From NCBI GenBank assembly GCA_029706075.1, contig JAINUG010000208.1, positions 310,001 to 374,000 of the forward strand: 64,000 bases of DNA, written 5' to 3'. The position numbers were made by a program, and so were the translations under genes. This document shows, one piece after another, positions 3,501-38,725 of this stretch. Under the pieces are notes generated by a model. That model was not told the DNA's origin. It worked only from the letters and a program-made list of their open reading frames with translations, and searched no databases. Each line of letters opens with the position of its first letter. Position 1 is the stretch's first letter. Source of the DNA: Aldrovandia affinis (Eukaryota > Chordata > Actinopteri > Notacanthiformes > Halosauridae).

Positions 3501-4769
3501 GAAGAGCGAGGCTTCATGAACCCCAATATGGGTGGAGCTATGATTCTTTGAGTGACTCACTGGTTCTAACCCTTTAGTGTTCTGCAGTAGAGCATATAGG
3601 TTTGATGGGTTATTTTGAGTAAGTGATTAGCAGAACATGGTAGCTCCACTTTCCCATCACTTCCTGTAAATATATCTAGTAACAACAGTGTTTGTGGTAG
3701 TTGCCTTATAGCAGGGTGGGATTTTAGGTTATCATTCAAAATCTCTTGTATTTGAACTGAAGTTTTGTTGAGGTGTTGACTGATTTGCTATCCCCCGCCC
3801 CTCCTCTCCCTGCTACGCCCCACCCCAGGCCTTCCATTGCGCTAATCCGCCCTCCCTCCAAACCTCCTGCCTCCCCCTCTTCCTGTCTCTGCTCACTCAT
3901 GAGGTGTACTACAGGTTGCAGACTGCAGGGGGCGACAGAGACACGCAGGTCAGTACTGTTTACAACTTAATGACAGGAGAAATAGGATGTTTTTTTCCCT
4001 CTAACTTCAGTACTCTATTGTAGAACCCACACCTTTACTTTTACTTATTTATCCTTTATATCAACCATGCAATTGTATCATTATTCTTGTATACATTATC
4101 CTACTTTTTACAAAACCTGTTCAAAGACATGCCTTTTTGTATGTCCTATTTAATTGTTTATTATTCATTTTTCCTGTTTTTGTCACTCTTTTATTGGGAA
4201 AGTGCTTTGAACACAATCCATGAAAAGCACTTAATAAATAAATACAGTGTATTATGATTATGATTTATGGAGGAGAAAAAACCCATTGAGACTGACATCT
4301 GTTTTTCAACGGGGACCTGGCCAAGAGAGCAACATACCAAAATACAAATACACAAGACATTGTTAAAACTGACAATACAGTAAGATTGTGACATTAAAAC
4401 AAATGAAAAAAGCATTCGGTTAGTACACCTATTGTCTGGAAGCTCCCCCTCTGTCCCCTGAGCCCGTACCTTTACACTGGCCACTAGTGATGGTGATAAA
4501 GATGTCTTCTTGCTCTCCTCTACAGCGCCCCCTGTCTGATATCTGCTATAATGGCTCCCGCCTAGTCCAGGCTCTGGCCAAGTTCAAAGACCGCTCCCTC
4601 CTGCTCAACAGCCTGCGGCTGTTCCCTCCCTCTGACCTCCTGACCCTGGGAACTGACCCGTCAGGGAGCCATGTCTTACAGGCCCTGCTGACATCATCGA
4701 GTGACAAGGGGCGGGGCAAGATACTGAAGAGGCTGGAGGTGAGAACAGGGGAGGAGTGGGGACAGGAGC

Positions 4770-4801
<32 letters not shown>

Positions 4802-4902
4802 GGGGGAGGGAGAGAGGGAGGGAGGGGGAGGGAGGGGGAGGGAGGGGGGGGGGAGGGGGAGGGGGAGGGGGGGGGGAGGGGGGGGGGGGGGGGGGGAGGG
4901 GG

Positions 4903-4933
<31 letters not shown>

Positions 4934-5915
4934 AGGGGAGGGAGGGGGAGGGAGGGGAGGGGAGGGGGAGGGAGGGAGAGGGGGAGAGGGGAGGGGGAGA
5001 GAGGGAGGGGGAGGGAGGGAGAGGGAGGGGAGGGGGAGGGGGGGGAGAGAGAGGGGGGGAGAGGGGAGGGGGAGAGGGGAGGGGGAGGGGGGGAGGGGGA
5101 GAGGGGGAGGGGGAGGAGAGGGGGGGGAGAGAGGGGGAGGGGGGGGAGAGGGGGAGGGGGGAGAGGGGAGAGAGAGGGGAGGGGGGGAGAGAGAGAGGGG
5201 GGGAGAGAGGGGGAGGGGGGGGGGAGGGAGAGGGAGAGGGGAGGGGGAGGGGGGGAGGGGGAGAGAGGGGGGGAGAGAGGGGGAGGGAGGGGGAGGGAGG
5301 GGGAGGGGGAGGGGGAGGGAGAGGGGGAGGGAGGAGGGAGGGGGAGGGAGGGGGGAGGGAGGGGAGAGGGGGGGAGGGAGGGGGAGAGGGGGAGAGAGGG
5401 GGAGGGAGGAGGGGGAGAGGGGGAGAGGGGAGGGGGGAGGGGGAGAGGGGGAGAGAGGGGGAGGGGGGGGAGGAGGGGGAGAGAGAGGAGGGGGAGAGGG
5501 AGGAGAGGGGGGAGAGGGAGAGAGGAGGGGAGAGGAGGAGGAGGAGGGGGGGGGAGAGGGGAGGGGGAGGAGAGAGAGGAGGGGGAGAGGGAGGGGGAGA
5601 GAGAGGAGGAGGGGGGAGAGAGGAGGAGGGGGAGAGAGGAGGGGGAGAGAGAGAGAGAGGGGGAGGGGGAGAGAGAGGGGGAGAGGGGGAGAGAGGGGGG
5701 AGAGAGGGGGAGAGAGAGGAGGAGGAGGGGGAGAGGGAGAGGAGGGGAGGGAGGAGGGAGGGAGAGAGAGGGGGAGAGAGAGGGGGAGAGAGAGGAGGGA
5801 GGGAGGGAGAGAGGGGGAGGGAGAGGGGGAGGGGGGGAGAGGGGGAGGGAGAGGGGAGAGGGGGAGGGAGAGGGGGAGGCAGAGGGGGGGAGAGAGGGGG
5901 AGAGGAAGAGGAGGA

Positions 5916-5953
<38 letters not shown>

Positions 5954-6670
5954 GGAGGGAGGGAGGGAGGGAGGGAGGGAGGGAGGGAGGGGGAGAGAGA
6001 GAGGGGAGGGATGGATGGATGGAGAGAGGGAAGGATGGAGGGAGGGAGCAAGAGGGAGGGAGAGGAGCAGAGAGGGAGGGAGTGAGAGGAAAGGAGGGAG
6101 CAAAAGGGAGGGAGAGAAGCAAAGAAAGCAAGAGTGAGGGAGGGAGGGAGAGGAGCAGAGAGGAAGAGAGTGATGGATGGTCACTATCATAGCAACATAG
6201 ACCCAATTCCATTCCAGAAAATTGTATTATTAATTCTGGAGCTTACTGAATAATATAATGATTGTGTCATTATTATTTTCCAGTATGCTAATAATACTTT
6301 ATGCAGGTACAAACAAACTACTGCGATGTTGGGATTGTAAATTGTAACATTATAGCTGCAATTAATGCTGCAGTTTACGTGGCAGCGGCTGGCATTTTTT
6401 AATTCGGATGTTTCCATGTTCAAAGTTTGACTGTTCCATTTGAAAATGGTATCACTCTTCTATCTCGTTTCATTTGCACTACAAATGAGTGTATGACATG
6501 AAAATATGTAGTTTGGAGTCTGCCTCCCAGGAGTGGAGGGGACCACAATTTAAATGTAATTCAGGATTCACACACACAGACACATACACAGTCACACCTG
6601 CTCACATACACACTCACACCTGCGTGCACACACTTTCACATGCTCACACCCCCCTCTCTCCCCACCCCCC

Positions 6671-6757
<87 letters not shown>

Positions 6758-7485
6758 TCCTCTCTTTTTCTCTCTGTCAGGGGCAGTATGTGCAATTGGC
6801 CTGTTCCAGATATGGCAGTCGTGTTTTGGAGGCAGTTTGGAACAGCGCCACCATGAGTCAGAGACAAGGCATTGCACAGGAACTAGGTGAGGATATGGAT
6901 TTGTTAGATTTTTCTTGCTGGAATGAACTGATATATGCTTCTATTTCATTATCTGCCAATGTAGACGTCCGTACAACAAAAACTATAACCACAATACGAC
7001 CAGGTCCCGATAAAAAACAGTGATCTGAACTCTGGTTCTGTTGCAGCCGTGAAGTATGCACTCAAATCCCAGAATGCAATTGGGGAACATTTGCAGGCTA
7101 AAACCATTCCAGGCCTAGACTCTCAATTGCCCTGTTCATTTGTGGTCATATTTTGGCTGTGCAAAAACAATAAAACAACATTTGAGTGCAATTCTTCATT
7201 CTCAGTCACCATGCTCCAAGAGTTTTAAATATGAAATGCTGTCTTTGCATATGTATAAGTACTATATATATATTTATAGAATGTCTGTCTCCCTCTCCCT
7301 CCCTGTCACTCTTTTTTATCTTTCTCTCAGCCCCTAGTGAATCAGTGCTGAGGTCTGATCAGTTTGCTCGCCACGTTTGGGGGAAATTTGCACTGACCCA
7401 CTTTGTGAAGAGGCGGAGCCAGTGGCTGGAAGCTCAGACCGGCCAATCAAAGAAGAGGAAGATGTTTAGTGACATTCTGGAGTGA
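383..7485 (+). CDS. nop9: Nucleolar protein 9 (pumilio-repeat), C-terminal half, seven exons
   Basis: Nop9 is a nucleolar protein built of pumilio-like helical repeats. It binds pre-18S rRNA and is needed for small ribosomal subunit maturation. Seven exons join in frame: 383-524, 2435-2627, 3331-3471, 3829-3948, 4526-4738, 6781-6886 and 7331-7485. Every junction is GT-AG. Together they encode about 355 residues, roughly the C-terminal half of a protein usually near 630. The upstream exons lie outside the window. Puf-type repeat signatures are visible: FVKDQASSRLIETVF, HPIANFPVQRL, DPSGSHVLQALL and SRYGSRVLEAVW. The product ends in a basic segment (KKRKMFSDILE), as other vertebrate NOP9 proteins do. 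No frameshift or stop interrupts the exons. Introns carry a hAT element (669-2199) and a giant purine tract (4766-6170). Confidence 0.93.
669..2199. mobile_element. hAT DNA transposon, non-autonomous, in nop9 intron
   Basis: The ends are 15-bp terminal inverted repeats (TAGAGATGCACCGAT at the left, its complement at the right). A perfect 8-bp target duplication, AAAATTAC, lies at 661-668 and 2200-2207. Both are hallmarks of hAT transposons. At about 886-1025 on the plus strand there is a decayed BED zinc finger: a C-x2-C pair in AVCHTCQSKIS, then an H-x4-H pair in RHLKSHH. This is the N-terminus expected of a hAT transposase. No transposase core is recognisable, and the centre looks like unrelated sequence. 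The 1,531-bp copy is therefore a deletion or replacement derivative. Confidence 0.88.
2435..2627 (+). CDS. nop9: nop9 coding exon
   Basis: Acceptor TCTGTCAG and donor CTG/GTATGC. The exon encodes SPLLVFVKDQASSRLIETV and onward to MAATASYKL, including a Puf-type repeat core and the conserved HPIANFPVQRL segment. It ends in phase 0. Confidence 0.93.
2628..3330 (+). other. nop9 intron, no recognisable element
   Basis: AT-rich intron with no coding potential, repeat or RNA gene that I can recognise. Short open frames here show no family resemblance. Confidence 0.6.
3331..3471 (+). CDS. nop9: nop9 coding exon
   Basis: Exactly 47 codons in phase 0 between TTTCTCTCAG and GTGTGG. It encodes FLPVFEELIEGLEAILAM and onward, an alpha-helical stretch that matches the NOP9 region following the HPIANF repeat. 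Confidence 0.92.
3829..3948 (+). CDS. nop9: nop9 coding exon
   Basis: Forty codons in phase 0 between CACCCCAG and GTCAGT. It encodes AFHCANPPSLQTSCLPLF and then LTHEVYYRL, matching the AFHC and EVYY signatures of vertebrate NOP9. Confidence 0.9.
3949..4525 (+). other. nop9 intron, no recognisable element
   Basis: AT-rich intron. I see no transposon, RNA gene or coding segment. Confidence 0.55.
4526..4738 (+). CDS. nop9: nop9 coding exon
   Basis: Seventy-one codons in phase 0 between CTCTACAG and GTGAGAAC. It contains NGSRLVQALAKF and GTDPSGSHVLQALLTS, two pumilio-type repeat cores. The purine tract of the next intron begins about 30 bp after the donor, so open frames running on from this exon are an artefact. 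Confidence 0.93.
4766..6170 (+). repeat. 1.4-kb G/A-only polypurine tract
   Basis: About 1.4 kb consist almost entirely of G and A on the plus strand, as shuffled GGGA, GAGA and GGAGGG units. Uninterrupted G runs reach about 20 around 4880-4935. A handful of C and T appear only near the ends (for example GGATGGATGGAT near 6010). Such mirror-symmetric purine DNA can form triplex (H-DNA) and G-quadruplex structures. The sequence accounts for long open frames on both strands, because codons made only of A and G include no stop. Confidence 0.97.
6683..6753 (+). repeat. (CT)n microsatellite serving as polypyrimidine tract
   Basis: About 35 CT units lie directly upstream of the nop9 acceptor at 6780 and, with the following TCTTCCTCTC, make up its polypyrimidine tract. 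It is in the same intron as the purine tract at 4766-6170. Confidence 0.93.
6781..6886 (+). CDS. nop9: nop9 coding exon
   Basis: Begins after TCTCTGTCAG and ends CTAG/GTGAGG, leaving one base for the next exon. It encodes GQYVQLACSRYGSRVLEAVW and then the IAQEL segment, the best-conserved C-terminal Puf repeat of NOP9. Confidence 0.94.
6887..7330 (+). other. last nop9 intron
   Basis: A 444-bp intron with a short (TA)n run near 7265 and a pyrimidine-rich 3' end. No other feature is recognised. Confidence 0.6.
7331..7485 (+). CDS. nop9: nop9 terminal coding exon
   Basis: Follows TTTCTCTCAG. With the base carried over it encodes APSESVLRSDQFARHVWGKF and then FVKRRSQWLE, ending KKRKMFSDILE and TGA at 7483-7485. 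Vertebrate NOP9 proteins end in a similar basic stretch followed by SILE-type residues, which supports this stop over the downstream alternative exon. Confidence 0.92.
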
Positions 7486-11408: not shown

Positions 11409-12614
11409 ATGGCTTTACAAGATGTTTGTGGTTTTTGGGACACCCCTGTCTACCCCAGATGGAACTCCCCAGCCTCACTCTCCATGCCGGTGGGAGATAC
11501 CACTGCACATTCCAACGAGTGGAATGGGGTGGAACCAAACTCCACAGGGAGGGATGGCACGGGTCTGCTGAGCTTGTACGTGCCCATCCCGGAGCACCTT
11601 ACCCAGAGTCCTTTGCAGGCCAGCCCTGGCTCCGCCCCAATCACCCCGCCCTTCCCTCTGTCACATGGCACCACCACCCTGGCGTTTACATTCCAGGGGG
11701 GGATTATCGTGGCGGCCGACACCCGGGCCAGCTGCGCAGGGCTGATCTGCAACCCCGGCGCCCAGAAGATTCTGCCAGTGAACACCCACCTGGTGATGAC
11801 CATGTCGGGCAGCGCAGCGGACTGCATGCTCTGGGAACGCATCCTGACTCGCGAGCTCCGTCTCTACCACCTCCGTCACCGCTGCCGGCTGTCAGTAGGG
11901 GGTGCTGCCAAGCTGCTCTCCCATATGCTGCACCCCTTCAAGGGCACCAACGTATGCGTGGCAACCATGCTGTGCGGCTGGGATGGCGAAGGAGAGGAGG
12001 ATGGGGAGAGGAGCGAAAGAGGGGGCGGAAGGATGGATTTGGAGGACAAGAGGGGAAAGAGGAGGGAGACACTGGGAGCGATCAAGGATGAAGGAAAATT
12101 GGAAGGGAGAGAGGGAGAGGTGGAGCGAATCAAAGGAAGAGAGAGAGACATAGAGCAAATCAGAGGGAGAGTGACAGAAACAGAGCCAATCAGAGTGAGA
12201 GAAAGAGAGACAGAGCCAATCAGAGGCCCCTCAGGCCCCTGTCTGTACTATGTGTGCAGTGATGGAACCCGCCTGCAGGGGGAGCTGTTCTCAGTGGGCT
12301 CTGGTTCGCCGTATGCATACTCAGTGCTCGACGGGGGGATGCGGTGGGGGCTGGGCGTTGCGGAGGCATGCTCGCTGGCCCGTGAGGCCGTGTACCGTGC
12401 CACGCACCGCGACGCCTACTCTGGCAATTGCGTGGACCTGTACCATGTCACCGCACGCGGCTGGAGACGCAGGGAGAGGGAGGAGCTGAGAGAGGAGTAC
12501 TACAGAGAGAGGGAACGAGAGAGGGAGAGGATGGAGGAAAGGAAGAGGGAGAGAGAGGGAGAGGATGGAGGAAAGGAAGAGGGAGAGAGAGGGGCTGGGG
12601 GAGAGTTGGGGTGA
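11409..12614 (+). CDS. psmb11: Proteasome subunit beta type-11 (beta5t, thymoproteasome)
   Basis: Catalytic beta5-type subunit of the 20S thymoproteasome. In jawed vertebrates it replaces beta5 in cortical thymic epithelium and shapes the MHC class I peptides that select CD8 T cells. It is a single exon of 401 codons. The ATG at 11409 is preferred because the product then starts MALQDVC, as mammalian PSMB11 does; an in-frame ATG lies 30 bp upstream. Residues 1-87 are the propeptide ending SHG. Thr88 is the mature nucleophile (HG/TTTLAF), with mature Asp17 and Lys33 present, and [12 protein letters not shown] supplies the conserved C-terminal catalytic support. Two oddities are an 81-residue net R/E-rich insert at 11985-12242 and a 49-residue charged tail. 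Lack of introns matches PSMB11 elsewhere. The paralogue psmb5 follows 1.3 kb downstream. Confidence 0.93.
11985..12242 (+). other. Charged low-complexity insert within psmb11
   Basis: Between the GWD and LYYV signatures beta5 has 5 residues, while this gene has 86, rich in Arg, Glu and Gly. The part at 12120-12239 is four 30-bp tandem units encoding ten-residue repeats such as [10 protein letters not shown] and [10 protein letters not shown]. The length is a multiple of three with no stop. No GT dinucleotide exists near the left edge to serve as a donor, so it reads as coding. Confidence 0.85.
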
Positions 12615-13300
12615 GCCATAGAGCTGATGTTCAACAGATGACTGCCTATAGAACTCTGGTATTTCACTGAGCACTATGTAACTTTAATAGTCATTCCAAT
12701 AATTGAAGAGAAATCTGGACACCTCTTTTTGACCAGCTTATAAAGGCTCTTTTAGCTTGTATTGTGCATATGCCTCCTACCCACCTCTACTTCATTATAC
12801 AGTCCAGTCAAAAGTTTGAGTACACCTGCTGGAAACTAGGTTTATCTCATAATTGACAATGTTTTACACCATATACGTTTCTTTAAATACGAGAAAATTA
12901 CAAAAGAGGCACTTGTGGGTTGCTTTGCTTTGACTGTTCTGTCCAGTTCATCACATACAAGTTCTATGGGATTGAAGTCTGGACACTGGGCAGGCCAGGT
13001 CTTTAGTTTGAGTTGTCCTTCACGTTCCCCCTTCACCAGATAGTTCTTGCACAACTTCAAGGTGTATTTCGGGTCGTTATCTTGCTCAAGAATGAAGGAG
13101 TGCCCGATTAGCCGTAGTCCAGATGGAAGGTGTACTCATACTTTTGACTGATACTGTATATATAATTATTCTCTTTACTTTTCATGTATTCTTTGTTGAA
13201 TTTATGTGGATGCATTGTCATGTTTGTTATGCAACAAATTATGATTTATTTTCTTCTCATTTGTTGTAACTGGAAAATAACTATATATCATAAATAAAAT
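12615..13300 (+). other. psmb11 3' UTR and polyadenylation region
   Basis: The first AATAAA after the stop is at 13293-13298 in CATAAATAAAATTG, followed by TTTAGTGTTTGAGGG. If it is used, the 3' UTR contains the Tc1 derivative at 12800-13156. Confidence 0.45.
12800..13156 (-). mobile_element. Tc1-like transposon, internally deleted
   Basis: A 357-bp element flanked by TA dinucleotides. Its terminal repeats are imperfect: CAGTCCAGTCAAAAGTTTGA at the left and the complement of CAGTATCAGTCAAAAGTATG at the right. On the minus strand 13060-12842 keeps a transposase piece (KTWPAQCPDFNPIELVCDEL), which is the region around the third catalytic residue of Tc1 transposases. Most of the transposase is deleted. 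Confidence 0.85.
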
Positions 13301-13650
13301 TGATAATAATATTTAGTGTTTGAGGGAAAAGTGTGGGAGATAATGAGGAATAAGAGGGAGAGAGAGGGTGGGTTGAGGGGAGAGTTGAGGGGGAGACAAA
13401 AAGTTGACAAGAGGGAAGGCAGCAGTGGGGTATAGAAAGGTACAAGAGACAGGGAAGTAAAGACAAGCCGAGTTTTAAGACTGTCATTTACAAGGATTTT
13501 GAAAGATAAAAGATACAGTATGTACAGTCCTACCTCGATTGCGCTGTACACATTTAAACTAAATTGAGACAGCCGTGAACATAGATGGCGCCCTCCTGTA
13601 AACATTTGAAAGATGAGTGACGTAGTTACTCTGCACGATTTGTTGTAAGC
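13300..13650. other. psmb11-psmb5 intergenic spacer
   Basis: Contains a purine-rich stretch (about 13320-13460, GGGAGAGAGAGGG type). No gene or classifiable repeat is seen. Confidence 0.5.
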
Positions 13651-13651
13651 G

Positions 13652-13887
13652 GTTTCATGAAGGTAGAGGCTAGTTGCCACCCATGCAGAGGACGAGATGC
13701 GTTTCGAGATGTGATTTGGCCTGTTGTTTTTTTTCGATCTTACAGTGCGCGTGACCGAACCCTAAACCTAACCCCTAAACCTAACCATAACCGTCAGTAT
13801 GGTCAATTTCGCGCAGTTGACGTCACATGGACGTCGCGTCTCGGTCCTCTGCATGGGGGGCATCTAGCCTCTACCGTTTCGTAAAAC
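13652..13887. mobile_element. MITE-like inverted-repeat element at the psmb5 promoter
   Basis: About 50 bp at 13652-13701 reappear in inverted orientation at 13835-13887, sharing GGTAGAGGCTAG and CCATGCAGAGGAC with few mismatches. The 130-bp centre holds degenerate CCTAAACCTAACC units. The right end is 38 bp from the psmb5 ATG. No clean target duplication is visible, so the superfamily is undetermined. Confidence 0.7.
13818..13825 (+). promoter_or_regulatory. Consensus CRE palindrome near psmb5 start
   Basis: TGACGTCA, the full cAMP-response element that binds CREB/ATF proteins, lies about 100 bp upstream of the psmb5 ATG inside the MITE-like element. Its use is inference. Confidence 0.4.
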
Positions 13888-13925
13888 TGTCGGAGCTACA
13901 TAATTTGCCCAAACCCATCGCAAAG

Positions 13926-28331
<14,406 letters not shown>

Positions 28332-31986: not shown

Positions 31987-34360
31987 CCTTCAGTAACACA
32001 GCCGTTGTCTTAGCTCTTCACCTCCAGCCAAGGAGGCTATGCCTGTCACCGTGTGGTGAAGCTACAAAACCCAGTTGCTGAGAGAAAACATATGGCCTTC
32101 TGGCCTTTACTGCATTCCTTGCTCTAATTTGTAATATTGCCTCAAACGACGCAGGGAAATTTGACTGCAAACTGGAAAAAAAGTGTCGAAGCTCTCACAC
32201 ACATAAAGGCATCCGAGTGTGTATTCAGCATGCAGACAGATTAACATGAATGACGTAAATGCAGTTAAGAATTTAAGAGGGGGGGGGGGGTGTAGGTCTC
32301 TGGAGCTGGCTCTTACAGCATGGCTAATCAATGCGCGCGGCTCAATAAGAGCGAATCATTGGATGGACCTAGCCAGCCGGTGCTGTGAATAATTACAGTA
32401 GTTTCTTGCGTAAGGTCTGTCTGTCTTCTTGAACTGAAGGGTCCCACGCTGTGCCCCCCCTCCCCCCTCTCCCATCCCATCCCATCTCTGTTCTTCATCA
32501 TCTGTTCTTGTTGTCCCTGTTGACGGGCCCTCCTTGCGGCTGCGATGGTGTTGATGTTGATACAGCGTTTGCTCCGTGTGGAGCTTGTGCATTCTGAGCA
32601 CTCCTGGGCTTCCTGGTCACAGGCTCGGTGATGACTATTGTCCCACGGAGCCACCACCCCCCCCCACACACACACACACCGCAGACTGCTTAACCCCCAC
32701 CGCCACACCTGATCATTTGAGTTTGAGACACAGGTGCTGCTCTTTTGTGAGGGTGAGGGTGTGCATGCGCGCTTATGTCCACGCTTGAATAGTTGTTGGC
32801 GACTCTCGGATTTCTGCTTAATCTCGCCGGGCGTTGCCACCCATCTCACCACCCCCCGTGCTCGCTCTTCTCTTCCTTTCCTCTCCACCCTTTCTCCTCT
32901 CGCTGGGCAGATCGATGCTGTTTCCTTCGAACGCCACAGGAGAGGCATTAATTAAACTCCCTGGTGCTCATTACTCAACCCCCCTTCCCCCCCTGCTACT
33001 CTCTAGAACGCATACTGAGTCTGCAGCTGTAATTCTACCTGCTGGGACGCCAGTTGAATACCACTGACTTAATGGGCGGCAGTGTTCCGTGGTTCTTGGG
33101 GAATTGGGGTCTTACTAAACACAATTTGGCAGATTTTAAATTCCCCAATGGAGAGCTGCTGTTTTTCCCCTGAGTATGGTTCTTAAATTCAACTGCTTCA
33201 ATAATGTGTAAAAAAGTTAAGAATTGGTAAGCTATTTAAGTTTCCAAGGATAGTGGCCCTAGCTAAGCGAATGATGATGAATGTAATAGGTTGAGCCTTG
33301 CTGGGCAAGGTTTTTTTGCGGAGATGGTGCGCTGCAGCTAAGCAAGTTAACTCCACTGCTACTCATGTGAGGGGTCATGTCTGGGGTAGCTGGGGACATA
33401 TTCTGGCTGTCGTGCTATGGCATCGGTTGGCTAACATTACACGCATGTGCAAAGTTTAGACTTCGCATGGCATTGGTACGGGAGGGTGCTGTACAGGCCA
33501 CAGCGTCTGTGTGTGAGGGAGAAGACAAGTGCAGGGAGAAACAGGGGCAGAGCAACATTGGAGTACTCAATCAGTGACTGAATGAGAGCACCTGAACCAG
33601 AAGTACGAATGAAGGCACGGGAGGGCATGAGAACCATATTAAAAAGAGCAGGCAGGGGAGAGCACTCAGGTGAGGAGTAGCCACGTTGCCAACAAGCGAT
33701 TTATTGGTCTATGTCCCTTTCTTGCGACCAGCTTTTTCTGTTTACTTTGGTGCATGGGGAGCTGGTGTTTTGGTGGTGTATGTGATAACGTCAGTGATTA
33801 CCTGTGCCTGAGCTGGGAACACGGTCCCGGGAGCCAGGAAGATCTGCAGAAGGCGACGAGAGAACCAGCTACGGGACAGCAGAATGGCGGAATGGATTCC
33901 CTGACGGCAGATGAAAGCTGGATTGGGAGTGTAAAGCTCCCCACCAGTAAAGGGAGTCGCTGGTGTGGTGGAGTGGGTGTGCGTCAGCTGAAGCTGTCCC
34001 TGGTAGCAGTTCTACAGGGGCACTTGAGTTCTCCAACATTCTGACGCTCAACTCTGGACTGACAGTGCCATTTGCTGAATTGCCCTGTTCAAAGGTTTGT
34101 TCTTGAATGAATTCTATCATTGCAGGTTTGTTTCTTTTTGTTTTTGATCCGCTATGTTACAGTGGGGACCCGAATTAGTGAGACAAAATGTCTCTCTTCC
34201 TTGCCTTCTTCCTCTGCCTCTCCCTCTCCCCCCTTTCCTTCTCTTTCCATCTTCCTCTTCCTCTCCCTTCATGAGGATTCAGTTGACAGAAGCTCTTTAC
34301 CTAAACTGAGGAGGAGGACCCTTTGCACAGCTCTGCCAGTGCTATGTGCATCAGCACCAC
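31986..34360. other. Intergenic sequence
   Basis: Contains a G run (32279-32290), short C and CA runs near 32,660, and a pyrimidine-rich stretch at 34,195-34,270. No gene recognised. Confidence 0.5.
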
Positions 34361-37300
34361 CCTTACACACTCACCCACAGCACTGCCCCCTTACACATAC
34401 CCACAGCACTGCTCTTACACACTCACCCACAGCACTGCTCTTACACACTCACCCACAGCACTGCCCCCTTACACACTCACCCACAGCACTGCCCCCTTAC
34501 ACACTCACCCACAGCACTACCCCCTTACACACTCACGCACAGCACTGCCCCTTACACACTCACGCATAGCACTGCCCCCTTACACACTCACCCACAGCAC
34601 TGCCCCCTTACACACTCACCCACAGCACTGCCCCCTTACACACTCACCCACAGCACTACCCCCTTACACACTCACGCACAGCACTGCCCCCTTACACACT
34701 CACGCATAGCACTGCCCCCTTACACACTCACCCACAGCACTGCCCCTTACACACTCACCCACAGCACTGCTCTTACACACTCACCCACAGCACTGCTCTT
34801 ACACACTCACCCACAGCACTGCCCCCTTACACACTCACCCACAGCACTACCCCCTTACACACTCACGCACAGCACTGCCCCTTACACACTCACGCATAGC
34901 ACTGCCCCCTTACACACTCACCCACAGCACTGCCCCCTTACACACTCACCCACAGCACTGCCCCCTTACACACTCACCCACAGCACTACCCCCTTACACA
35001 CTCACGCACAGCACTGCCCCCTTACACACTCACGCATAGCACTGCCCCCTTACACACTCACCCACAGCACTGCCCCCTTACACACTCACCCACAGCACTG
35101 CTCTTACACACTCACCCACAGCACTGCTCTTACACACTCACCCACAGCACTGCCCCCTTACACACTCACCCACAGCACTGCTCTTACACACTCACCCACA
35201 GCACTGCCCCCTTACACACTCACCCACAGCACTGCCCCCTTACACACTCACCCACAGCACTGCCCCCTTACACACTCACCCACAGCACTGCCCCCTTACA
35301 CTCACCCACAGCACTGCCCCCTTACACACTCACCCACAGCACTGCTCTTACACACTCACCCACAGCACTGCCCCCTTACACACTCACCCACAGCACTGCC
35401 CCCTTACACACTCACCCACAGCACTGCTCTTACACACTCACCCACAGCACTGCTCTTGCACACTCACCCACAGCACTGCTCTTACACACTCACCCACAGC
35501 ACTGACCTTACACACTCACCCACAGCACTGCTCTTACACACTCACCCACAGCACTGCTCTTACACACTCACCCACAGCACTGCTCTTACACACTCACCCA
35601 CAGCACTGCCCCCTTACACACTCACCCACAGCACTGCCCCCTTACACACTCACCCACAGCACTGCCCCCTTACACACTCACCCACAGCACTGCCCCTTTA
35701 CACACTCACCCACAGCACTGCCCCTTTACACTCACCCACAGCACTGCTCTTACACACTCACCCACAGCACTGCCCCTTTACACACTCACCCACAGCACTG
35801 CCCCCTTACACACTCACCCACAGCACTGCTCTTACACACTCACCCACAGCACTGCTCTTACACACTCACCCACAGCACTGCCCTTACACACTCACCCACA
35901 GCACTGCCCCCTTACACACTCACGCATAGCACTGCCCCCTTACACTCACCCACAGCACTGCTCTTACACACACCCACAGCACTGCCCCCTTACACACTCA
36001 CCCACAGCACTGCCCCCTTTACACTCACCCACAGCACTGCCCCCCTTACACACTCACCCACAGCACTGCCCCTTACACACTCACCCACAGCACTGCCCCC
36101 TTACACACTCACCCACAGCACTGCTCTTACACACTCACCCACAGCACTGCTCTTACACACTCACCCACAGCACTGCTCTACACACTCACCCACAGCACTG
36201 CCCCTTACACACTCACCCACAGCACTGCCCCCTTACACTCACCCACAGCACTGCCCCTTACACACTCACCCACAGCACTGCCCTTACACACTCACCCACA
36301 GCACTGCCCCCTTACACACACACTCACCCACAGCACTGCTCTTACACACTCACCCACAGCACTGCCCCCTTACACACTCACCCACAGCACTGCCCCTTAC
36401 ACACTCACCCACAGCACTGCCCCTCTTACACACTCACCCACAGCACTGCCCCTTACACACTCACCCACAGCACTGCCCCCTTACACACTCACCCACAGCA
36501 CTGCCCCCTTACACACTCACCCACAGCACTGCTCTTACACACTCACCCACAGCACTGCTCTTACACACTCACCCACAGCACTGCCCCCTTACACACTCAC
36601 CCACAGCACTGCTCTTACACACTCACCCACAGCACTGCCCTTACACTCACCCACAGCACTGCCCCCCTTACACACTCACCCACAGCACTGCTCTTACACA
36701 CTCACCCACAGCACTGCTCTTACACACTCACCCACAGCACTGCTCTTACACACTCACCCACAGCACTGCCCCCCTTACACACTCACCTACAGCACTGCTC
36801 TTACACACTCACCCACAGCACTGCTCTTACACACTCACCCACAGCACTGCCCCCTTACACACTCACCCACAGCACTGCTCTTACACACTCACCCACAGCA
36901 CTGCTCTTACACACTCACCCACAGCACTTACACACTCACCCACAGCACTGCCCCCTTACACACTCACCCACAGCACTGCCCCCTTACACACTCACCCACA
37001 GCACTGCTCTTACACTCACCCACAGCACTGCTCTTACACACACAGCACTGCCCCCCTTACACACTCACCCACAGCACTGCCCCCTTACACACTCACCCAC
37101 AGCACTACACACACTCACCCACAGCACTGCCCCCTTTACACTCACCCACAGCACTGCTCCACACTCACCCACACACTACACACACCCACAGCACTGCCCT
37201 TACACACTCACCCACAGCACTGCCCCCTTACACACTCACCCTACACACTCACCCACAGCACACCCACAGCACTGCTCTTACACACTCACCCACAGCACTG

Positions 37301-37739
37301 TCACCCACAGCACTTTACACACTCACCCACAGCACTGCCCCCTTACACACTCACCCACAGCACTGCCCCCTTTACACACTCACCCACAGCACTGCCCCCT
37401 TTACACTCACCCACAGCACTGCCCCCTTACACACTCACCCACAGCACTGCCCCCTTACACTCACCCACAGCACTGCCCCCTTACACACTCACCCACAGCA
37501 CTTTACACTCACCCACAGCACTGCCCCCTTACACACTCACCCACAGCACTACACACACCCACAGCACTGCCCCCTTACACACTCACCCACAGCACTGCTC
37601 TTACACACTCACCCACAGCACTGCTCTTACACACTCACCCACAGCACTGCCCCCTTACACACTCACCCACAGCACTGCTCCTTTACACTCACCCACAGCA
37701 CTGCTCTTACACAGTCACCCACAGCACTGACCTTACACA
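34361..37739 (+). repeat. 3.4-kb minisatellite, 26-28-bp units
   Basis: More than 120 tandem copies of a unit close to TTACACACTCACCCACAGCA followed by CTGCCCCC or CTGCTC. Variation is mostly in the C/T spacer. In the left part a variant order (CACTACC, then CGCACAG, then CGCATAG units) recurs at about 34,517, 34,656, 34,847 and 34,986, showing block duplication of about 139 bp. The units degenerate and shorten toward the right end. Open frames across it are repeat artefacts. Confidence 0.97.
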
Positions 37740-38725
37740 TCTTTCATGAACTCCCTCCCCACACGTCACACCCCTCTTGCTACTTTTACACATTAATTCA
37801 CAGGCGTGGTTTTAAATATTAAATATGACAGCAGCTCTGGGCCCTCTTCCTCTGTTCAAGCCTGTGCAGGGAAACACTCGCTCACATCCTGCTCTGTTCA
37901 TGATTTATTGCTTTGTGTGTTCCACCTGAGCCTCATAATTCCCTCCCAGCACGGCTGATTTAGCCCTGACTTTCATCTCCCTAATTGGAGTCTCTCTTTG
38001 CGAACCTTGGTGGTGGCTGTGGCTGACGGGTGTAATGAAGGGTTAAATCGCGAGAGCCAGGTGTGCTGCACCGCCCACGCTCCCTAGAGGCCCCGCCCCC
38101 TCCTCGCCACGTGCCACACCTGTTGTTCTCTGTATATTTCATCTGCCATATGCGCCGGTGCATGTGCGTGGGCATGCGTGTGTGTGACATCGGCCATCTC
38201 ATCCAGATGCCCAAACACTCTCTTCCCAATCGAAATCTCTGCGGACAACTTTTGGATGCCCACAGAGAGAGAAGGGGAAAGGTGCGATGAACGTAATACA
38301 AGAACACACAGACCATAAACACCCGACACTGCTGCACTTAGAGATGCAGGGTAATATTGTGGATGCTATCAGACGCAAAGATAAACGGGGGAAGGGGGAT
38401 AGGGGGATAACTGCATACTGCACACGCTCACAGGGTGCACTGCGCTGAGCTGACAGGGATAAGAAAGGAAGAGTTAATACGACCACTCTGCAGTGCATTA
38501 ATGACAAACGCTGATAGATTGTGATAAATTTAGAGGGATTTGGATTTCCACTCCAAGAATCCGCGAGTAGCAGAGAGAGGGGGGAGAGAGAGAGAGAGAA
38601 GGAAAGAAAAAGAGAGGGAGCAGATGGGTCAGCCATCTGGTGGAGGAAGAGAGTGAGAGATAAAAAAGAGGAGGGAGGGAACGCTGAGGAGAGGGAGATA
38701 AGGTGGAAAGATGCATGAGAAACAT

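Follow-up and report, generated by a model that had tools for sequence, protein, structure and literature searches.

A charged, repeat-built extension of the GWD-LYYV turn in a single-exon PSMB11 (beta5t) gene of Aldrovandia affinis

The window, by which we mean the whole stretch of 64,000 nucleotides that was analysed (C1202:310001-374000, in a 1.22-Gb genome of 2576 contigs), carries a PSMB11 gene followed by psmb5 (Table 1). PSMB11, or beta5t, is the thymoproteasome subunit, a class defined by expression confined to the thymic cortical epithelium; its coding sequence is intronless and it typically lies next to PSMB5. The window gene has both of these features, as its coding sequence is one open frame free of introns and psmb5 adjoins it. 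A psmb5 also follows a second PSMB11 copy that lies elsewhere in the genome. The product of the window gene matched the Pfam family PF00227 (Proteasome) at 9e-36 and, judged by its sequence, it has T1, D17 and K33 together with the GSGS and RDAYSG motifs, which we take to be the catalytic motifs of beta5, as is proper to a proteasome beta fold. Its identity to the psmb5 of the window was 45% over exon 2 and 56-58% over exon 3.

At the positions presumed to form the S1 pocket (20, 31, 45 and 49), the window PSMB11 has A20, A31, M45 and A49, all of which are hydrophobic. Teleosts are described as having a beta5ta with a hydrophobic and a beta5tb with a hydrophilic S1 pocket (PMC12650242, in excerpt). 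The window pocket is of the teleost beta5ta kind, and since the hydrophilic pocket of mammalian-type beta5t and teleost beta5tb was not found in it, we class the gene as beta5ta-like only.

Table 1. Coordinates of the features of the PSMB11-psmb5 region in the window.
Feature	Positions	Strand	Remarks
PSMB11 (beta5t) single-exon CDS, 401 aa	11409..12614	+	beta5ta-like S1 pocket; ATG to TGA
Charged low-complexity insert, 86 codons between GWD and LYYV	11985..12242	+	GPSGPC at 3' edge
30-bp tandem repeat, 4.1 copies, 79% matches	12104..12226	+	degenerate 10-residue repeat; Tandem Repeats Finder
R/E-rich C-terminal tail, 71% charged	12465..12611	+	common to the second PSMB11 copy
34-bp tandem repeat in tail, 2.5 copies, 96% matches	12508..12593	+	period not a multiple of three; Tandem Repeats Finder
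psmb5 exon 1, coding part	13926..14144	+	to donor AAA/GTGAGTG
psmb5 exon 2	18275..18581	+	from K/FQHG; ends in phase 1
psmb5 exon 3 homology	28045..28313	+	starts CCGCAG/GT CTG TAC (LYYV); 3' limit taken from the tblastn match

Several other elements were observed around these genes. About 6 kb upstream there is a 1.25-kb tract of nearly pure purine (4770-6010) that is open in several frames and is flanked by two NOP9-like PUF segments (4424-4720 and 6700-7023). Intron 1 of psmb5 contains a Tc1-like transposase (16368-17261) and intron 2 has, on its minus strand, a reverse transcriptase (RVT_1; 20184-21116). The stretch at 17202-17576 is 91% alike to one that lies upstream of the second PSMB11 at a distance of about 12 kb. 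A long tandem array at 34310-37800, reading THSPTALPPYTLTHSTAP.. in overlapping open frames, is apparently non-coding satellite-like DNA.

In the window PSMB11 the last base of the GWD motif is 11984 and the first of LYYV is 12243, which leaves 258 nt, or 86 codons, between them, as compared with the five residues (KRGPG) that fill the same turn in the psmb5 of the window. These values confirmed the net excess of 81 residues that had been claimed in an earlier note on this DNA, and the description given there of the extra segment as mostly R, E and G was also borne out by the residue counts (R16, E19, G15, K5 and D5 of 86), with R, K, E and D together making up 52% of the segment and its net charge being -3. 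The insert DNA is 80% purine (A 38%, G 42%, C 12% and T 8%), and 123 of its 258 nt form an in-frame tandem array whose 30-bp unit is a multiple of three and lies inside the segment, i.e., a coding tandem repeat. T was found at codon position 2 in 13 of the 19 cases in the insert, partly as an effect of the repeat. Two units of the coding repeat (12180-12226) have in common ACAGAGCCAATCAGAG, words that we presume to be CCAAT-box-like and that are probably a chance of the repeat unit.

The claim that the segment stays in frame within a conserved catalytic subunit also held, in that the reading frame is open throughout, the Pfam match is strong, and phmmer searches against PDB beta5 chains left the insert unaligned while placing both halves of PSMB11 on adjoining stretches of the chain. 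In the best match, residues 63-195 and 276-360 of the query aligned with residues 33-166 and 166-250 of the chain, the halves thus meeting at the same chain residue; this meeting point was seen in all three of the printed alignments, the table covering 60 of the 201 sequences with one stretch each, in which the junction is not visible. The open frame is only mild evidence by itself, since dinucleotide shuffling of these 258 nt left the frame open in 217 of 2000 trials. Stronger than openness is the setting, in which the insert is flanked on either side, in the same frame, by conserved sequence whose catalytic motifs are intact.

The C-terminal tail of the window PSMB11 is likewise repetitive at its end, where the 34-bp unit breaks the frame and the end of the tail is therefore rewritten by frame. 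The 30-bp repeat of the insert and the 34-bp repeat of the tail fall in one purine-rich repeat family. The insert and the tail DNA gave a local score of 58, which was reached by none of 200 mononucleotide shuffles of the tail, the only control used, the highest of which scored a nearly equal 57; this likeness is as expected of like purine repeats. Such GA tracts recur in the genome, where a 401-nt query had at least 91 matches, one of them being the window and two the second PSMB11. Five of the other 88 matches (L004-L008) were inspected, and their matched parts were GA/CT simple sequence.

Searches of the genome with DNA, with the N-half and with the C-half of the protein identified one further PSMB11, on contig C2544. 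The N-half had six matches (two in PSMB11, two in psmb5 and two in a gene of contig C1842 that we infer to be psmb8-like) and the C-half had five (two, two and one, respectively). The second PSMB11 has S20, S31, T45 and S49 in its S1 pocket, which is hydrophilic and beta5tb-like, and it too carries an insert, of 347 nt, between GWD and GPGLYYV (4638-4984 of the reverse complement of locus L009, whose coordinates are used below for this copy; A 26%, G 48%). Blastn aligned the two copies at 11644-11983 and 12234-12590 of the window, with nothing between. With the edges that were used for shuffle comparisons, the turn measures 249 nt in the window copy and 347 nt in the other, these being two gene copies of one genome. 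The insert DNAs were slightly more alike than chance (4 of 400 shuffles reached the score in global and 9 of 400 in local alignment), so that a conserved element is still conceivable. Comparison of the insert proteins, for which the second copy was represented by its frame-0 part only, identified no likeness beyond composition (835 of 1000 shuffles reached the local score and 488 of 1000 the global one). The insertion site is common to both PSMB11 copies, and the sequence inserted is hardly or not at all shared.

In the second copy, the GWD and LYYV halves are in different frames. The GWD frame stops at a TAG (4716-4718) and the LYYV frame is open from 4676, with an overlap of 40 nt (4676-4715) that is rich in G runs; the open stretch from 4676 to 4984 was also open in 69 of 2000 shuffles. 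This frame break may be an assembly error, a real one-base change or the mark of a decayed gene, or it may reflect a weak intron.

The blocks that contain the two gene pairs (window 11409-28313 and C2544:607501-646500, minus strand) differ unevenly along their length. Between the PSMB11 copies, dS was about 0.9 on the N side and about 0.5 on the C side of the insert, and dN/dS was about 0.2 and 0.06, respectively, so that the flanks are conserved. For psmb5, dS was 2.5 in exon 1 (near saturation), 0.39 in exon 2 and 0.14 in exon 3. The duplication appears to be old because the N-halves of PSMB11 stand at a dS of about 0.9. As the simplest reading, the sequence comparison suggests an old duplication of the PSMB11-psmb5 block that was followed by patchy, repeated gene conversion, in which case the insertion site would be either old or partly spread by conversion on the 3' side.

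Structure prediction gave little guidance on the shape of the loop. Two AlphaFold runs with 3-row alignments of window sequences had pLDDT of 36.6 and 33.8 and pTM of 0.23 and 0.20, which made them unusable for the fold, probably because they had no deep alignment to draw on. Both models had a helix of low confidence within the insert (at residues 234-254 in one, and 148-170 of the modelled fragment, equal to 235-257, in the other), and the first, poor as it was overall, had a helix in the tail (357-388, with block pLDDT of 75, 89 and 68). In charge-hydropathy analysis both inserts and the tail were classed as disordered and the core as ordered; given the helix in the first model, the tail may instead be a charged helix, against the disorder call.

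The position of the loop can be approached by analogy with other beta subunits, in which the strand that follows ends in a turn (residues about 114-118) that lines the S3 pocket of the neighbouring subunit in the inner chamber. The turn that holds the insert, between the CGWD and LYYV strands (presumably S5 and S6), should face outwards because it lies at the opposite end of that short strand. By this analogy the insert should be a surface loop, as had been proposed.

The position of the insert relative to introns was of interest since the earlier note had placed it exactly at the beta5 exon 2/3 junction. Intron 2 of psmb5 is in phase 1 after GWDKRGP (GGGCCAG/GTATG ... CCGCAG/GTCTGTAC), and the psmb8-like gene has a phase 0 intron in the same turn (GWDNK/GPGLYYV, the turn being NKGPG). 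A GP pair is kept on the 3' side of the insert in both PSMB11 copies (in the second as GPGFGPG-LYYV), and because it survives there the insert is to be placed some 7 nt to the 5' side of the psmb5 junction and within 0-2 codons of the intron position of the psmb8-like gene. The turn is therefore the same one, as the note had it, but the position is not exact, being 7 nt off and nearer to the intron of the psmb8-like gene. We give this match of intron and insert positions modest weight because both may favour turns.

Two origins had been offered for the extra segment, a former intron turned into coding sequence and repeat growth in a tolerant loop. On the former account, the turn intron of an ancestor lost its splice sites and became exon in the window copy, and the second copy may still splice. 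In favour of such a history, psmb5 and the psmb8-like gene each have an intron within this five-residue turn. The second copy points the same way; in it, 215 in-frame GT..AG pairs were scored with rough, approximate matrices, which underlie all of the splice scores given here. Splicing to an acceptor at 4953 (CCCTCCACCAG/GGG, preceded by TAATGAC) would bring the two frames of that copy back together; the pairs that use it were weak, the best scoring 2.2 (4607-4953, GWD lost) and 1.8 (4703-4953, GWD kept), and the acceptor itself scored 2.2, close to the 2.4 of the real psmb5 exon 2 acceptor in the same matrix. The second insert is also just 57% purine over its final 60 nt. The window copy, however, has neither the relict donor and acceptor nor the polypyrimidine tract of an exonised intron. 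The best GT within its insert scored 1.3 (12195), where the two psmb5 donors scored 5.2 and 5.7 and the psmb8-like donor scored 2.6, in agreement with the earlier statement that no plausible donor is present, and the best of 41 in-frame GT..AG pairs (11940-12246, at least 60 nt apart) scored -8.3, as compared with 13.6, 10.5 and 7.6 for psmb5 intron 2, the psmb8-like intron and psmb5 intron 1. Purines make up 70% of the 60 nt that precede GPC, versus 35% where psmb5 intron 2 ends, and the insert had local scores of only 19 and 20, without shuffle control, against the two ends of that intron. In addition, intron 1 of psmb5 is missing from both PSMB11 copies, so that intron 2 would have to be the single survivor. 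The place of the insert, a few codons away from the psmb5 junction, counts against this origin as well. Splice scores and base composition together disfavour an intron in the window PSMB11, live or former, and we regard a former intron as unlikely. A live intron, by whose removal the protein would lose most of the insert, is more doubtful still and in our view very unlikely: fish introns are often short and GA-rich exonic enhancers could aid weak sites, but there is no donor near the left edge and the pair scores given above apply to it equally. It is also hardly credible that the insert is an artefact of assembly or repeat collapse in a GA-rich stretch, as the frame break in the G-run-rich part of the second insert might suggest, given that the window copy runs unbroken, in frame, through 86 codons and that the second locus has an insert too. 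Since the second PSMB11 is also interrupted there, the turn is better seen as a growth-tolerant spot than as the site of a leftover intron. Of the two origins offered, repeat growth is thus the one that stood, with the 30-bp array, the 34-bp tandem repeat of the tail, the many GA/CT repeats and an unaligned purine insert at the same spot in the second copy in its support.

A different question is whether the charged loop and tail are a selected feature of beta5t, for example a surface found only on the thymoproteasome that serves a regulator or a chaperone of assembly. That both PSMB11 copies have their turn interrupted and end in a tail rich in R and E would fit this idea, as would the conservation of the tail (dN/dS between the copies of about 0.27 over 45 codons), its modelled helix and the age of the duplication as indicated by the N-halves. 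On the other hand, the likeness of the insert proteins did not exceed that of shuffles, the genome has many purine repeats, and the C side may have been spread by partial gene conversion, and we consider selection for the loop and tail improbable. We hold it to be similarly improbable, in its fullest form, that both beta5t proteins carry long charged bristles outside the 20S barrel, kept in position and charge and not in sequence, as a surface unique to the thymoproteasome for assembly choice or regulator binding.

The insert is a real, in-frame, repeat-built extension of a tolerant beta5t turn, ordinary in its mechanism and unusual in its place. The explanation that we favour, and consider probable, is that of a coding low-complexity extension of the hairpin that grew by purine-tract slippage or unequal exchange and forms a near-neutral surface loop. 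A GA-type purine tract between the CGWD and LYYV strands would have grown by micro- or minisatellite slippage and unequal exchange, and the R/E-rich tail would have been built by the same process. The turn would tolerate such length because it is expected to point away from the catalytic chamber. The product, presumably translated, would be a flexible or helical, nearly charge-balanced loop at the surface, with fold and catalysis intact.

In the closed ring into which they pack, catalytic beta subunits show little variation in length. Given this near-constancy, a turn with 80 extra residues would mark a place where the 20S core can be extended with its fold kept. If the loop is translated and assembled, it would offer a natural insertion site for tagging, and it could be used to test whether surfaces specific to the thymoproteasome are of consequence besides its S1 pocket. 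If such loops are common among fishes, it would represent ordinary lineage variation.

Pattern searches for relatives gave 3 matches for the N side, in viral contigs, and 101 for the C side, in genome contigs, none of which was confirmed. No description of a fish PSMB11 loop of this kind was noticed in the excerpts of PMC1309616, PMC9586880, PMC12650242, PMC9365674, PMC7824517, PMC12983459 and PMC8834425, which were returned by queries not worded for loop length. A zebrafish gene named 'psmb11' is placed in the MHC core region (PMC1309616, in excerpt), and because of that location the name probably does not refer to beta5t.

Comparison with known systems places the window gene among the teleost PSMB11 genes (beta5ta and beta5tb), with which it shares the psmb5 neighbour, the single exon, the catalytic residues and the occurrence of two copies with hydrophobic and hydrophilic S1 pockets (PMC12650242, in excerpt). 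What may set it apart from them is the 86-residue GWD-LYYV turn, together with the R/E-rich tail and the place of both copies here beside a psmb5. PSMB5 (beta5) and PSMB8 (beta5i) have the same fold and catalytic motifs as PSMB11, but their turn is short and bears an intron (KRGPG, and NKGPG in the psmb8-like gene). Coding mini- and microsatellite expansions are similar to the insert in their purine simple sequence, in a unit that is a multiple of three, in their little conservation and in their charged product; what sets the present case apart is that the expansion lies in a turn of a proteasome catalytic subunit, and that this turn is interrupted in two old gene copies.
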